Below are positions 5,155-9,180 of a DNA stretch of 10,497 nucleotides, piece by piece. A program made the position numbers and the translations under genes. Origin of the DNA: Rhodobacterales bacterium UBA3089 (GTDB taxonomy: Bacteria > Pseudomonadota > Alphaproteobacteria > Rhodobacterales > Rhodobacteraceae). Where the stretch lies: assembly GCA_002367255.1 (NCBI GenBank), contig DFBD01000174.1:277-10773 (forward strand). The letters run 5' to 3'. The notes beneath the pieces are model-generated. The model was not told where the DNA came from, searched no databases, and saw only the letters and a list, made by a program, of their open reading frames with translations. Each line of letters starts with the position of its first letter. Within the stretch, counting starts at the first letter, position 1.

Positions 5155-5163
5155 GTTTGTTGA

Positions 5164-5349
5164 CACATATGCGAGGCCGGTCTCCTGGCTTATGGTTTTT
5201 GGCTGGCATCGCCTTCCCGGTGTTACCCAGTGGCTTATGATGCCCGCTAACCACATACAGTCGCGGGGGCGGCTGCGGCTTTGGGCCCCGACTTGGGTAG
5301 TCCCTCAACGCATTCCCGTTTCATCCCCGAGTGCTTGTGCAAACATGTG
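5164..5349 (-). promoter_or_regulatory. cobalamin (adenosylcobalamin) riboswitch controlling cbtBA
   Basis: Read on the minus strand, the leader contains the cobalamin riboswitch landmarks in order. First comes GATGAAACGGGAATGCG; then GCCGCAGCCGCCCCCGCGACTGTA, which ends in the classic CCCGCNACTGT-type core; then AAGCCACTGGG, CCGGGAAGGC and the B12 box AAGCCAGGAGACCGGCC (5191-5175). The ends can close a P1 helix: CACATGT..GC (5349-5339) pairs with GCATATGTG (5172-5164), with a two-base bulge. The element lies 42 bases upstream of cbtB and should lower transporter expression when B12 is bound. The class is certain by pattern; the outer boundaries are approximate. Confidence 0.93.
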
Positions 5350-5434
5350 GGGAACCTTGCAAAGTAAGCTTTCCGAGATTCGGGGTGCCAAGTCAAGGAT
5401 TTTGCGTATAACCCCCTTGATAAATACAGAATCG

Positions 5435-5469
5435 TTGTCAATTACGTTGATATATTCTAATATACGAAT
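5435..5469 (+). promoter_or_regulatory. mrp promoter with overlapping SqrR/BigR-type operator
   Basis: TTGTCA (5435-5440), a 17-base spacer and TAATAT (5458-5463) make a strong sigma70-type promoter ahead of mrp. The -10 hexamer lies inside ATTC-TAATATAC-GAAT (5454-5469), an exact ATTC-N8-GAAT as I recall for SqrR of Rhodobacter capsulatus. The 13-mer CTAATATACGAAT (5457-5469) recurs in the repressor gene's own promoter (8256-8268). A repressor bound here would cover the -10. Motifs are seen directly; binding is inferred. Confidence 0.65.
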
Positions 5470-5514
5470 GAATACTCAATCGGCATCCGTAGGTGCCAAA
5501 AACAAGGGGGAAAC

Positions 5515-6612
5515 ATGGCTGATTCATTATCAGACCGGATATTGGGCGAACTGTCCCAAATTGCGGTTGATGGCCTTAACGGAGATCTGGTTTCGCTGGG
5601 CCTGGTATCTGAAATCACGGAAACTGAGGGAAAAGTTATCTTTTCCATCACGATTCCAGATGAATTTCGCGGTAACTTCGACCCGATCCGCGACGACGCG
5701 CAAGCGCGTGTCGAAGCGATGGACGGGATTGATACTGCATTGGTCGTTCTGACCGCAGCCGTTGATGCGCCCGCCGCTGCCGAGCAGCCACCGCAGTTGC
5801 AGACATCCAAACCTGTCGGCCGTGATATGCGCCCGCTGTCGTCGGCTATCCCCGGCGTAGGTGCGGTCGTGGCGGTCGCCTCTGGTAAGGGCGGTGTCGG
5901 GAAATCTACGACATCGGCCAATATCGCGCTGGCACTGTCTTCCCTTGGTTTGCGGGTTGGTTTGCTGGATGCAGATATTTATGGCCCGTCAATTCCACGC
6001 TTAATGGGTGGTGACGGCCAGCTTGATATCGTTGATGAAAAAATCATCCCGAAGGATTCGTATGGCGTCAAAGTCATGTCGATGGGCTTCATGATGGAAG
6101 AGGACAAGCCGGTTATCTGGCGTGGTCCGATGATCGTTTCCGCGTTAATGCAGATGGTTCACGAAACCAACTGGGGTACGCTTGATGTGCTGATTCTGGA
6201 TATGCCTCCGGGAACGGGTGATGCGCAGCTTACGATGGCGCAGCAGGTTCCTATGGCGGGTGCGGTTATCGTTTCCACGCCTCAGGATTTGGCGTTGATC
6301 GATGCGCGTAAGGGTCTGAAGATGTTCCAGGATGTGGACGTGCCAATCCTCGGGATTATCGAGAATATGAGCAACTTCATCTGCCCGCATTGTGGTGAAA
6401 CATCGGATATCTTCGGCCATGGCGGCGCGAAGGACGAGGCGATCAAACTGGGTGTGCCGTTCCTTGGTGCGATCCCGTTGCATATGGATATTCGCATGCA
6501 CTCGGATGATGGCAAGCCAACTGTGGTTGCTGAACCGGATGGGCCGCATACGAAAATCTATAAGGCTATCGCTTTGAACATCGCCACGCAGCTTCGCAAT
6601 AGCGACGAATAA
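5515..6612 (+). CDS. mrp: Mrp/NBP35 (ApbC)-family iron-sulfur cluster carrier ATPase
   Basis: Cytoplasmic P-loop ATPase that holds a bridging [4Fe-4S] cluster at its dimer interface and delivers it to target apoproteins. At 365 residues it has the full two-part bacterial form: an N-terminal MIP18-type domain at about 5-80, an Ala/Pro/Gln linker, then the ATPase. The deviant Walker A is GKGGVGKS (124-131), LLDADIYGPS covers 150-159 and LDMPPGTGD is at 228-236. The cluster ligands are the CPHC pair (290-293) in NMSNFICPHCG. The start at 5515 follows a strong AGGGGG ribosome binding site. It is monocistronic and closed by a perfect 10-bp terminator. Its promoter carries an operator-like site shared with neighbouring sulfur genes, so its synthesis may rise under reactive sulfur stress, perhaps to serve sirohaem/Fe-S sulfur enzymes; that link is my inference. 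Confidence 0.92.
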   Translation: MADSLSDRILGELSQIAVDGLNGDLVSLGLVSEITETEGKVIFSITIPDEFRGNFDPIRDDAQARVEAMDGIDTALVVLTAAVDAPAAAEQPPQLQTSKPVGRDMRPLSSAIPGVGAVVAVASGKGGVGKSTTSANIALALSSLGLRVGLLDADIYGPSIPRLMGGDGQLDIVDEKIIPKDSYGVKVMSMGFMMEEDKPVIWRGPMIVSALMQMVHETNWGTLDVLILDMPPGTGDAQLTMAQQVPMAGAVIVSTPQDLALIDARKGLKMFQDVDVPILGIIENMSNFICPHCGETSDIFGHGGAKDEAIKLGVPFLGAIPLHMDIRMHSDDGKPTVVAEPDGPHTKIYKAIALNIATQLRNSDE

Positions 6613-6618
6613 ATAGAC

Positions 6619-6654
6619 CGGCCCCTGCTTAACGGCAGGGGCCGAATTCTTTTA
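6619..6654 (+). terminator. terminator of mrp, probably bidirectional with yeeE
   Basis: A perfect 10-bp GC-rich stem, CGGCCCCTGC (6619-6628) with GCAGGGGCCG (6635-6644), has a 6-base loop and is followed by AATTCTTTTA. The tail runs into the stop codon of the convergent yeeE-like gene (6652-6654). In the minus direction the hairpin is followed by a weaker T-rich stretch, so it may serve both genes. Confidence 0.9.
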
Positions 6655-7758
6655 GGCTTCTCTCATCAACAGATATTCGAAGAACTTCATGCCGGCGATC
6701 CCGCCGACAACGATGAACGCGAATGTGATGTAGGAACCAAGCGCCATAGTCGATGCGCCGGAAACGGCCTGCCCGACGGTGCAGCCCAGCGCCACAACTC
6801 CGCCGATACCCATCAGCGCCGCACCAAACAGGTTGCGTGTGGTATCTTTGGTGTCTGCGAATGTCGCGATGGCGAATTTGCCGTGGATTATCGCACCAAT
6901 GAACCCGCCAAGAAGTGCGCCGAGGGTCGTTACAACCGCAAAGCTTGGTGTTGCGTAAGCCGTGAAGCGCATCAGGTAATCGAGTGTGTCACCAGAGGGG
7001 CGAACATATGTTAGCGATGCGAGCGCGACTGGTACATCTGCGAAATCATCCTGCGCCAGCCCTGTCAAAAGCCACGCGGCGGTAACGCAAAGACCTATAC
7101 CAACACCGGCGATGATGTGAACCGGCGAGGTACGAAACCCTTTGTCTTTAAAGATGTAGCCAAGGAATGCGGCCAGCACGACAACCAGAACGATGTTTCG
7201 CGCCATGCTGACATCAAGGCCAGTCAATGCCGCCAGAATATCGCCAGAGCGTTGTGAATCCAAACCGTAATCGGCAAGATTAATAGTAACTGGTGAGAAA
7301 ATCGCGACGCGTAGCGGGCCAAGAAGACCACCGATTGTCATATAGCCAAAAATACCAACAACAACCAGAACTATCAAGGAACGCAAGTCGCCGCCACCTG
7401 CCCGCACCAGATTTCTGCTGGTGCAACCTCCGGCGAATACCATGCCGAAGCCGAAAATTAGGCCGCCAACGATGTTGCCAAGCCAGTTGAAGCTGGGTGT
7501 TAGGTATAAGGAGCCGCTTAGATCAGCGATCCCTGCCACCTCGATTATCGTTGCACCGATAATGGCTGTCGCGGTGGCCAAAAGCCACGAGCGGAAGCGG
7601 CGGTAGTCGCCGAAATTCATGATATCCGAAATGGAGCCCATAGTGCAAAAATTAGTTCTAAAGACGATGTAACCGAAAACGATTCCGATCATCAGGCCGC
7701 CAAATCCCACATAGAGTGCCGGTGACTCTATGATTAAATCCCTTAGTGCGTCGATCAT
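6652..7758 (-). CDS. yeeE: YeeE/YedE-family sulfur-compound permease (TsuA-like)
   Basis: Inner-membrane protein of 368 residues with about nine hydrophobic segments, near 14-33, 58-75, 92-111, 126-147, 188-204, 213-235, 270-292, 310-330 and 341-357. It matches the YeeE/YedE (sulfur transport) family, whose studied member TsuA takes up thiosulfate by relaying the substrate along conserved pore cysteines. The corresponding positions are visible: C38 in RTNFCTMG, C112 in FAGGCTSRN and C326 in ALGCTVGQ; C224 is extra. The Gly-rich repeats around C112 and C326 give the internal two-fold symmetry of the family. The gene lies just downstream of the ArsR-type repressor on the same strand, 135 bases apart, behind its own palindromic operator-like site. 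The exact substrate (thiosulfate, persulfide or another sulfane compound) is unknown. An AAGGGAAG ribosome binding site supports the start. Confidence 0.87.
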   Translation of the reverse strand: MIDALRDLIIESPALYVGFGGLMIGIVFGYIVFRTNFCTMGSISDIMNFGDYRRFRSWLLATATAIIGATIIEVAGIADLSGSLYLTPSFNWLGNIVGGLIFGFGMVFAGGCTSRNLVRAGGGDLRSLIVLVVVGIFGYMTIGGLLGPLRVAIFSPVTINLADYGLDSQRSGDILAALTGLDVSMARNIVLVVVLAAFLGYIFKDKGFRTSPVHIIAGVGIGLCVTAAWLLTGLAQDDFADVPVALASLTYVRPSGDTLDYLMRFTAYATPSFAVVTTLGALLGGFIGAIIHGKFAIATFADTKDTTRNLFGAALMGIGGVVALGCTVGQAVSGASTMALGSYITFAFIVVGGIAGMKFFEYLLMREA

Positions 7759-7829
7759 AATACTTCCCTTGTTGCGTCATGCAGCTGCGCCCCAACCCGT
7801 AATTTGTAAACGGCTATTGGGTGGCAGGC

Positions 7830-7857
7830 AGTATAAAACATCATATTGTAATATGAT
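7830..7857 (-). promoter_or_regulatory. yeeE promoter region with 18-bp palindromic operator candidate
   Basis: ATCATATT-GT-AATATGAT (7840-7857) is a perfect palindrome with a 2-base centre. On the minus strand it sits just upstream of a TATACT -10 hexamer (7835-7830), covering the -35 position of a promoter for the yeeE-like gene. Its core TATTGTAAT resembles TATTCTAAT in the mrp and dsrE operators, so it is a reasonable target for the adjacent ArsR-type repressor. Binding is inferred. Confidence 0.6.
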
Positions 7858-7893
7858 AGTGTGTCTATTTCAGGGGATTTGAGGCGAGTAGTT

Positions 7894-8223
7894 TTAGGCC
7901 GTTTCTTCTACAGCAGGCTCAAAACAATAAATATCAGACAAAGTGCCCAGAATCCTTTCGGCCTCTTCGCTGGTGATCGAGTAAAAAATCGACTGCGCTT
8001 CGCGACGGGTAGAGACCAAATTTTCATAGCGAAGAATCGCCAGATGTTGTGACAAGGCTGATTGACCCAAGCCAACGAGTTTTTGCAATTCCTGCACGGA
8101 ATGTTCACCTTGGGCAAGGTTGCATAGGATCAGCAGACGCCATTGATTCGACATCACACGCAACAACCCGCTTACCTCCGAAGCTTTTTCTTCCAACTGT
8201 GAAAGGTCCAGATTCTTGATCAT
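7894..8223 (-). CDS. sqrR: ArsR/SmtB-family persulfide-sensing repressor (SqrR/BigR/YgaV type)
   Basis: A 109-residue winged-helix repressor. The helix-turn-helix covers about 42-65, with recognition helix SALSQHLAILR (55-65); a wing follows at about 70-84 and the C-terminal dimer helix at 85-100. It has exactly two cysteines, C34 in LLILCNL and C100 in SDIYCFEP. The 66-residue spacing equals that of the sensing pair in SqrR (C41/C107) and BigR (C42/C108). In those proteins sulfane sulfur links the pair by a polysulfide bridge and releases DNA. The metal-ligand ELCVCDL motif of arsenic/cadmium ArsR proteins is absent, which argues against a metal sensor. It is transcribed toward yeeE and away from dsrE-tusA, and its own promoter carries a candidate operator. 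Gene start at 8223 is likely, since the next ATG would remove the first helix. I use sqrR as the nearest name; bigR is as good. Confidence 0.85.
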   Translation of the reverse strand: MIKNLDLSQLEEKASEVSGLLRVMSNQWRLLILCNLAQGEHSVQELQKLVGLGQSALSQHLAILRYENLVSTRREAQSIFYSITSEEAERILGTLSDIYCFEPAVEETA

Positions 8224-8252
8224 GCCTCTAAAATCCTGTTTTGTATATGTAC

Positions 8253-8283
8253 TTACTAATATACGAATTTCATAATATTACAA
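8253..8283 (-). promoter_or_regulatory. repressor-gene promoter with autoregulatory operator candidate
   Basis: On the minus strand TTGTAA (8283-8278), a 16-base spacer and TATTAG (8261-8256) form a promoter ahead of the ArsR-type gene. The -10 lies in ATTC-GTATATTA-GTAA (8268-8253), an imperfect form of ATTC-N8-GAAT. It contains the 13-mer that is also found, in inverted sense, at the mrp promoter. A further TTGTAATAT, shared with the yeeE palindrome, overlaps the -35. Autorepression is inferred. Confidence 0.55.
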
Positions 8284-8333
8284 GGGTCTCCTGCTGCCTG
8301 CCTTCACGCAAGCCACAACAATTCCTTGTTTTG

Positions 8334-8380
8334 TTGACTCTTGGCAAATGATGGGTATTAGTTTATTCTAATTAAGGAAT
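8334..8380 (+). promoter_or_regulatory. dsrE-tusA promoter with SqrR/BigR-type operator
   Basis: ATTC-TAATTAAG-GAAT (8365-8380) is an exact ATTC-N8-GAAT. It overlaps the core promoter in either of two readings: TTGACT (8334-8339) with TATTAG (8356-8361) at a 16-base spacing, which puts the site at +1; or TTGGCA (8341-8346) with TATTCT (8364-8369) at a 17-base spacing, which puts the -10 inside the site. Either position suits repression by the divergently encoded ArsR-type protein. Confidence 0.66.
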
Positions 8381-8412: not shown

Positions 8413-8919
8413 ATGCTGGACAGCGCAACCGACGGAAGCAATTCTAAAAGCATGTCGATTATCGTCACCAAAGGCACGCTTGATTGGGCATACCCGCCAT
8501 TTATTCTTGGCACAACTGGTGCTGCGATGGATATGGATGTTACAATGTTCTTTACATTCTACGGCCTTGGATTGCTGAAAAAAGACATGAATTTGAAGTT
8601 GTCCACACTTGGCAATCCAGCGATGGAAATGCCTATGATGGGCAAGCACATGGCGATGCCAAATATCATCGGCGGCCTTCCTGGCGCTGATAAAGGCGTG
8701 ACCGCTATGATGAAAAGTATGATGGCGAAAAAGGGCGTTGCTTCGATCGAAGACCTTCGCGAAGCTGCCGTTGAATCCGAGGTGCGCCTGATCGCATGCC
8801 AAATGACACTTGATCTGTTCGAGATTAAGGACACTGACCTGATTGACGGTGTGGAAATTGGTGGCGCGGCGACTGCCCTCGAAGTTGCGGGCAAAACAGA
8901 CATCAACTACTTCATGTAA
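8413..8919 (+). CDS. DsrE/DsrF/DrsH-like (DsrE2-type) sulfur-relay protein
   Basis: A 168-residue protein of the DrsE_2 branch of the DsrE/F/H family, whose members carry persulfide sulfur on a cysteine and exchange it with TusA. The N-terminal MSIIVTKGTLDWAYPPFILG (14-33) and the DVTMFFTFYGL strand (42-52) are typical of this branch. There is a single cysteine, C129, in LIACQMTLDLF, the position expected for the sulfur-bearing residue. The middle is very rich in methionine (NPAMEMPMMGKHMAMPN, 68-84; MM pairs at 99-104), a trait of DsrE2-like proteins. I see no long membrane helix beyond the moderately hydrophobic 27-55. A strong AAGGGAG ribosome binding site lies nine bases before the ATG. 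It is co-transcribed with tusA 36 bases downstream, from a promoter carrying an operator-like site. The exact partner and direction of sulfur flow are inferred. Confidence 0.85.
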   Translation: MLDSATDGSNSKSMSIIVTKGTLDWAYPPFILGTTGAAMDMDVTMFFTFYGLGLLKKDMNLKLSTLGNPAMEMPMMGKHMAMPNIIGGLPGADKGVTAMMKSMMAKKGVASIEDLREAAVESEVRLIACQMTLDLFEIKDTDLIDGVEIGGAATALEVAGKTDINYFM

Positions 8920-8955: not shown

Positions 8956-9180
8956 ATGGCCGATCAAACACTAGACGCAAAAGGGCTTAACTGCCCACTT
9001 CCTATCATCAAAGCTAAGAAAGCGCTTAAAGGCATGTCTGCCAGTGAAATTCTGGCCATCGAATCCACAGATCCGGGTTCGGTTGCGGATTTTGCAGCGT
9101 TCTGCCGTCAGACTGGTAACGAGCTGGTAAGCTCTGAACAGTCCGGTGATGTTTACAACTTCGAGATCAAAAAATCCTGA
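8956..9180 (+). CDS. tusA: TusA-family sulfur carrier protein
   Basis: A 74-residue cytoplasmic sulfur carrier. It opens MADQTLDAKGLNCPLPIIKAKKAL in pattern, with the hallmark Cys-Pro-x-Pro at 13-16; C13 carries the persulfide. The alpha/beta fold follows through DPGSVADF (about 41-48) to the end, the normal TusA length. In sulfur oxidisers TusA works with DsrE-type proteins to bring sulfane sulfur to dissimilatory or heterodisulfide-type enzymes; in other bacteria it serves tRNA thiolation or molybdenum enzymes. Being directly behind a DsrE-like gene favours the sulfur-relay role. ATG at 8956 is chosen over GTG at 8944, because the GGAAAGG at 8938-8944 would then act as its ribosome binding site, though at a longish spacing. 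A strong terminator follows. Confidence 0.92.
   Translation: MADQTLDAKGLNCPLPIIKAKKALKGMSASEILAIESTDPGSVADFAAFCRQTGNELVSSEQSGDVYNFEIKKS

Follow-up and report, generated by a model that had tools for sequence, protein, structure and literature searches.

The window analysed here is a stretch of 10,497 nucleotides from Rhodobacterales bacterium UBA3089 (contig DFBD01000174.1; genome G000, 2,355,657 bases, 71.7% complete), in which an operator-like element recurs in the promoters of mrp, of an ArsR-family repressor gene and of dsrE2-tusA. The genes are arranged in the order phosphomannomutase-like gene, c-type cytochrome, CbtA, mrp, yeeE, repressor gene, dsrE2-tusA and cobB. According to profile searches, mrp (5515..6612, plus strand) encodes an iron–sulfur (Fe-S) carrier of the ApbC/NUBPL type: the protein passes PF10609 (336.4 bits) and misses the ApbC equivalog NF008669 (337.5 bits, cut-off 348). 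The product of yeeE (6652..7758, minus strand) is a sulfur transporter of the YeeE/TsuA/SoxT type, passing PF04143 (200 bits) and missing the TsuA thiosulfate transporter model NF052577 (112.1 bits, cut-off 400). The repressor gene (7894..8223, minus strand) encodes 109 residues, of which Cys34 and Cys100 occupy the sensor positions. The sulfur carrier gene dsrE2 (8413..8919, plus strand) is identified by NF047629 (218.7 bits, above the cut-off of 210). The tusA-like sulfurtransferase gene (8956..9180, plus strand) is identified by PF01206 (78.3 bits, cut-off 28.6) and misses the TusA equivalog NF001423 (57.8 bits, cut-off 78).

This block is conserved within the genus. The repressor gene and yeeE adjoin dsrE2 in 12 of 13 same-genus genomes; G007 contains no dsrE2, no mrp above 49% and no repressor match beyond 44% identity. 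The mrp gene continues the block except in G001, where it lies on another contig, and in G010, where mrp was not found and the contig stops after yeeE. The window Mrp is 83–95% identical to its counterparts in ten other genomes of the genus and 45–51% identical to a second Mrp present in most of those; as judged from these identities, the window gene is a dedicated paralogue of another genomic mrp copy.

An earlier note on this DNA had proposed four related operator-like sites at core promoter positions, forming a local regulon. The exact dyad ATTC-N8-GAAT is indeed found at 5454..5469 in the mrp promoter (ATTCTAATATACGAAT, plus strand) and at 8365..8380 in the dsrE2-tusA promoter (ATTCTAATTAAGGAAT, plus strand), and the degenerate copy TTACTAATATACGAAT is present at 8253..8268 (plus strand) in the repressor promoter. 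It is also correct that ATTC-N8-GAAT is the deduced SqrR site of Rhodobacter capsulatus, as quoted in PMC9774250. The mrp site overlaps a proposed −10 box (TAATAT, 5458–5463), which lies 17 bases downstream of TTGTCA (5435–5440), and the site at the repressor gene overlaps the proposed −10 box of that minus-strand gene. At dsrE2 the proposed promoter sequence is TTGACT (8334–8339), whose first five letters, TTGAC, are unchanged in all 12 genomes of the genus. The core promoter positions are thus plausible for mrp and dsrE2, as assigned by eye against the consensus. A third exact copy of the dyad in the window (9049–9064) sits within tusA and is probably due to chance.

In 200 dinucleotide shuffles of the window, the exact dyad occurred 0.23 times on average and never three times. 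The whole genome contains 36 copies, compared with six of the reversed pattern. At this density about 0.16 copies are expected per window length, while three are observed (Poisson probability about 0.0006). The longer sequence ATNCTAATATACGAAT has its sole exact match in the genome at mrp and its sole match with one mismatch at the repressor gene. A free motif search over the same-genus promoters returned AT.cTAATATAcgAAT; such models assume one site per sequence, so that each sequence is forced to give a match. Palindrome-constrained models had a lower likelihood than free models of about equal width. We refer to the sites at mrp, the repressor gene and dsrE2 as class W.

Loss of the dyads from orthologous promoters had been set beforehand as one of the refuting observations. 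The core of the mrp site, TTCTAATATAC, is identical in all ten genus genomes with sufficient upstream sequence, even in G005 and G009, whose mrp flanks align poorly, and the dyad before yeeE described below is kept in nine of 12. At dsrE2, all 12 genomes have CTAAT and the orthologues mostly read AT(G/C)CTAATAAACGAAT; at the repressor gene, TTACTAATATAC is kept in seven of 12. The arms proposed as the common feature did not stand up to this comparison: ATTC and GAAT are exact at the aligned place in seven of ten mrp promoters, in one of 12 dsrE2 promoters and in no repressor promoter (0/12). Within the genus, ATTC-N8-GAAT was therefore rejected as a conserved element at the latter two genes. 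Sites from one genus share descent and are not independent.

A matrix was built from the mrp sites of nine other genomes, omitting G000, and compared with a genus background of 296,424 bases (585,198 positions from 24 partly orthologous loci, after masking of the window and sox promoters under study). In the window the three highest scores fall on 5454 (30.1 bits), 8253 (19.7 bits) and 8365 (14.4 bits), with 9.4 bits for the next best; every background position stays below 12.2 bits. Nine of 12 dsrE2 promoters in the genus have a site of at least 14.4 bits, without equal in the background. G000 and G012 are the lowest of these (14.4 bits), most orthologues scoring 17.8–19.7 bits, and the sites of G005, G009 and G010 have diverged. 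The repressor promoter reaches at least 12.2 bits in seven of 12 genomes and is weak in G011 (9.0) and G004 (6.3). The three-site motif is nearly unique in the genome at zero or one mismatch; the locality does not extend to ATTC-N8-GAAT, which on other contigs of G000 also precedes soxX, trxC and a gene for a rhodanese. At the three loci with diverged dsrE2 sites (L031, L032 and L034, from G010, G005 and G009), the repressor gene, dsrE2 and yeeE are all retained.

The yeeE site does not belong to this motif. The 18-bp dyad ATCATAT-N4-ATATGAT (ATCATATTGTAATATGAT, 7840..7857, without strand) is present as claimed. It receives 4.3 bits from the mrp matrix, with 41 background positions equal, and a single motif for all four sites was rejected. 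Its conserved form in the nine genomes is ATCAnAT-N4-ATATGAT with a free centre. In G000, TCATAT-N4-ATATGA is exact at yeeE only; with up to one mismatch it is found at four places (yeeE, the soxV promoter and two others), compared with one for the control. A yeeE matrix from eight other genomes gives seven of 12 soxV promoters at least 12.4 bits, with at most one background position equal. Four more reach about 10 bits (six background positions equal), no better than the best mrp (9.7) and soxX (9.9) promoters, and one fails. We regard yeeE as a neighbouring, partly separate member of the regulon; the likeness of its dyad to the soxV promoter element suggests that two circuits are coupled. 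In G012, a masked place upstream of yeeE scores 14.1 bits with the mrp matrix.

The proposed second circuit is marked by other copies of ATTC-N8-GAAT. Of the 36 genomic dyads, 32 were re-fetched, the others being the three on the window contig and that at soxX; by a crude filter, 13 of the 32 lie outside open reading frames of at least 150 residues, although several of these are clearly within shorter genes. Only two were followed up, chosen for their sulfur- or thiol-handling products, so that their share among the dyads is no unbiased estimate. One, on contig C81 (L278, 265–280), is found 78 bases upstream of a rhodanese-type gene and recurs in 11 of 11 orthologous promoters of the genus, G007 included. 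The other, on contig C63 (L277, 754–769), is found 14 bases upstream of trxC; five of seven orthologues have it exactly, and in a further one the dyad centre is shorter by one base. For trxC, 15 of 22 listed matches (up to 37% identity) were dropped as other thioredoxins; for the rhodanese, one second match of 29% was dropped. The soxX promoter has the dyad in all 12 genomes from which the cluster was fetched. SoxX, SoxY, SoxZ and TrxC score above the cut-offs of their NCBIfam models, as does the rhodanese for its Pfam family; soxA, soxV and soxW owe their names solely to position and likeness. The R. capsulatus rhodanese rcc01557, presumably orthologous, is regulated by SqrR (PMC10044876). 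For the R. capsulatus trxC gene (rcc02517), likewise SqrR-regulated and a presumed orthologue, sulfide gives a 22.4-fold rise and absence of SqrR a 21.6-fold rise (PMC10044876), and in our own reading of a primer given there ATTC-N8-GAAT directly precedes its start.

These sites form an operator class of their own (class S, ATTCA-N6-TGAAT), separate from class W. In class S the arms are constant and the interior is variable, position 5 being A, C or G in every one of the 28 sites and position 12 T in 27 of them. In class W the arm positions vary and the core CTAATATACG is fixed, with T at position 5 and C or G at position 12 in 29 of 29 sites. The class S list was picked by ATTC-N8-GAAT and the class W list by CTAAT-holding patterns, so that those letters were preset, including position 5 of class W, which lies within CTAAT. 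Sites were obtained from 12/12 soxX, 11/11 rhodanese and 5/7 trxC promoters for class S, and from 10/10 mrp, 12/12 dsrE2 and 7/12 repressor promoters for class W. In most soxX promoters (L219 from contig C85 of G000, and L221–L231) a second conserved element near CTTATATTAGnGAAATAT lies upstream of the dyad; the ATTAG in it is similar to CTAAT, the core of class W.

The local repressor had been taken for an SqrR/BigR-type protein. It does belong to the two-cysteine ArsR subfamily: PF01022 (44.3 bits, cut-off 22) identifies the ArsR helix-turn-helix, and Cys34 and Cys100 match the sensor cysteines of SqrR and BigR in the alignment. Of 346 homologues found, 120 were listed, and all but one of these have both cysteines. 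Its best relative in the PDB is NolR (81.3 bits); BigR (78.8), YgaV (73.1) and SqrR (70.7) score lower. A second ArsR protein of the genome, encoded on contig C85 in a sox cluster with DsbD-type, thioredoxin-like and YeeE-type genes, scores 130.8 bits to R. capsulatus SqrR. In the tree, SqrR and the sox-linked SoxR proteins form a group of 20 rows (99/92) which excludes all 12 repressors of the window genus. The window repressor falls into a large group with NolR, in a tree based on few columns and with long branches for BigR and NolR. The recognition helix reads QSALSQHL in the local repressor and QAAVSQQL in SoxR/SqrR. The BigR equivalog NF040642 (cut-off 155) is missed by the local repressor (95.9 bits) and the C85 protein (96.5 bits) alike and thus does not separate the two. 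On sequence grounds, the local protein is a two-cysteine ArsR repressor and not the SqrR orthologue; that orthologue is the SoxR on C85.

We lean, by a narrow measure, towards a sulfane-sulfur regulon comprising dsrE2-tusA, mrp and the repressor gene, with an operator class of its own bound by the local repressor. A dimer of the local two-cysteine protein would occupy the class W sites, whose core is CTAATAWACGAAT, at the −10 box or the start region and block transcription, that of its own gene included. The inducer would be sulfane sulfur, either polysulfide or a persulfide of low molecular weight, which YeeE may import and TusA or DsrE2 may relay; a sulfur bridge forming between Cys34 and Cys100 would then detach the repressor, as described for SqrR and SoxR (PMC9774250, PMC10451225). 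Rising cytoplasmic persulfide would then lead to production of the importer, the carriers and the Fe-S carrier. The paralogous SoxR/SqrR orthologue would hold the class S sites before soxX, the rhodanese gene and trxC.

Compared with known systems, the locus shares with SqrR of R. capsulatus and with SoxR the ArsR fold, the two sensor cysteines, sulfur-handling targets and operators over the promoter, and most mrp sites also have the ATTC and GAAT arms. It differs in that the window repressor lies outside their branch, has another recognition helix and coexists with a separate orthologue. Another parallel is Hyphomicrobium denitrificans, where the repressors SoxR and sHdrR are paralogues with two cysteines each, SoxR going with sox and sHdrR with the handling of sulfur in the cytoplasm (PMC12423496, PMC10451225, PMC11582611); they have shared DNA regions and an adjoining YeeE-type transporter. 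Here, the second repressor accompanies dsrE2-tusA-mrp instead; no operator motif for sHdrR is given in the consulted text of these articles. BigR (Xylella, Agrobacterium) and YgaV (Escherichia coli) are structurally solved sequence relatives with two cysteines. The BigR equivalog cut-off is missed, however, and no blh-like sulfur dioxygenase was seen among the scanned window genes. NolR (Sinorhizobium) has the identical helix QSALSQHL and lacks both cysteines. Its consensus, (A/T)TTAG-N9-A(T/A) (PMC12445080), is loose; it shares the CTAAT half and by eye agrees, in G000, with the sites at dsrE2 and the repressor gene and not with that at mrp. We take it only as a lead to the class W operator.

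Several observations weigh against a regulon governed by the local repressor alone. With the mrp matrix the masked soxX site of G000 reaches 14.4 bits, as do those of L222, L229 and L230 (four of 12 genomes), and the dsrE2 site of G000 thus scores no better than a soxX site, although most dsrE2 orthologues do. G005, G009 and G010 retain the repressor without a class W site at its gene. Two of 14 dsrE2-linked repressors from other genera (L192, L203) lack the second cysteine, V or A being aligned with it, so that the mode of sensing may vary, and a comparison of recognition helices with operators for covariation (the only analysis in which L104, L105 and L107 were scored) gave no decisive result. 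The main counter-evidence comes from the wider family, where dsrE2 was found in 37 of 394 sampled genomes, G000 included. A close repressor orthologue (51–60% identity) stands beside dsrE2 in ten of the 36 others. At the dsrE2 promoters, class W matches (P < 1e-4) were found in 6/10 with and 9/26 without the repressor beside, and class S matches in 8/10 and 11/26, so that neither class follows the local repressor cleanly; a family-wide search for joint occurrence of motif and repressor gave no clean split. Six loci without the repressor have yeeE beside dsrE2, four of them also mrp, and their whole genomes contain no close repressor orthologue (best 37–42% identity or none); nevertheless, they keep related elements at the dsrE2 and yeeE promoters and at some mrp promoters. 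Outside the genus the classes therefore blur, and the element is independent of the local repressor. These counts cover all 36 promoters and are preferred to earlier motif models built on 18 of them, namely all ten with the repressor and eight of 26 without. The eight had been picked after viewing 16 loci and were a favourable choice, seven of eight matching class S compared with four of the remaining 18. Scoring of all 36 used a larger background, which shifts the P-values slightly.

At up to three mismatches, the level of the dsrE2 site, ATNCTAATATACGAAT is no commoner in the genome than its reversed control (20 versus 29), which speaks for a chance likeness among AT-rich promoters. Such a likeness we nevertheless consider hardly credible and reject: conservation in 9–12 genomes, the lack of background matches and the shuffles contradict it. 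We also reject, as very unlikely, the view that the conserved block is the core promoter only, that is the −10 box and start region. TAATAT at mrp does fit a −10 box, 17 bases past TTGTCA. Class W parallels transcription at mrp and dsrE2, however, while at the repressor gene the 13-mer CTAATATACGAAT opposes it, so that a −10 box is by itself an insufficient explanation; moreover, conservation extends beyond the box on either side and no equal score is found elsewhere in the masked genus background. A regulator other than the two ArsR paralogues could account for the uneven co-occurrence of class W and local repressor outside the genus. This is improbable in view of class W over the repressor's own promoter in seven of 12 genus genomes and of the restriction of matches with zero or one mismatch, in G000, to the locus beside the repressor.

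The most serious rival, although on balance unlikely, is that the SoxR/SqrR orthologue, alone or with the local repressor, binds at mrp and dsrE2, the local protein acting as a co-repressor or fine-tuner like sHdrR. SoxR and sHdrR of H. denitrificans share four DNA fragments as binding targets, and PMC12423496 leaves open whether they compete, co-repress as separate dimers or form heterodimers; shared control has to be taken seriously here for this reason. A soxX matrix gives the mrp and dsrE2 sites of G000 14.3 and 13.3 bits (two background positions equal), reciprocal to the 14.4 bits of the soxX site with the mrp matrix, and the class S matches without a close repressor beside point the same way. 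The exact dyad, absent from the ten family dsrE2 promoters with the repressor beside, occurs in five of the 26 without it (L194, L198, L206, L208, L209), compared with about 0.1 expected (density 0.004 per 150 bases in these loci); for one of the five, L194, the genome holds a 49% identical repressor relative elsewhere. Set against this rival are the two positions, enclosed by the arms, at which classes W and S differ (29/29 versus 28/28 and 27/28 sites), the loss of the dsrE2 arms within the genus with the core kept, and the repressor's own site, which receives 3.2 bits from the soxX matrix (159 background positions equal). The exact-dyad counts support both a SoxR-type dsrE2 site without the local repressor and its loss with it, and they hint that a SoxR-like site at dsrE2 may be ancestral. 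A history of split codes in this genus can be put forward tentatively, although it is less likely than not: SoxR would have kept the ancestral ATTCA-N6-TGAAT at sox, rhodanese and trxC, and its NolR-side paralogue would have taken over the ancestrally SoxR-like dsrE2-tusA promoter by way of the new code CTAATAWACGAAT and brought mrp, as a dedicated Fe-S carrier, into the persulfide response. No class S match is found in 15 of the 26 dsrE2 promoters without the repressor beside.

The observation of the earlier note is thus real and conserved, if partly misassigned, and the split into operator classes is the part worth testing. It provides two sulfane-sulfur repressors that coexist in one genome with a pair of operator classes that can be put to the test, and it places a paralogue of an Fe-S cluster carrier under predicted persulfide control. 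A link of Mrp/ApbC to persulfide or SqrR control was not found in a limited search of the open-licence literature, and 'mrp' does not occur in the available text of PMC9995734 and PMC11582611.

At the edges of the block, a cobalamin riboswitch (108.6 bits) at 5158–5374 on the minus strand, on the cbtA side, stands back to back with the mrp promoter. The cobB gene at the opposite end is syntenic in most of the genus loci fetched.

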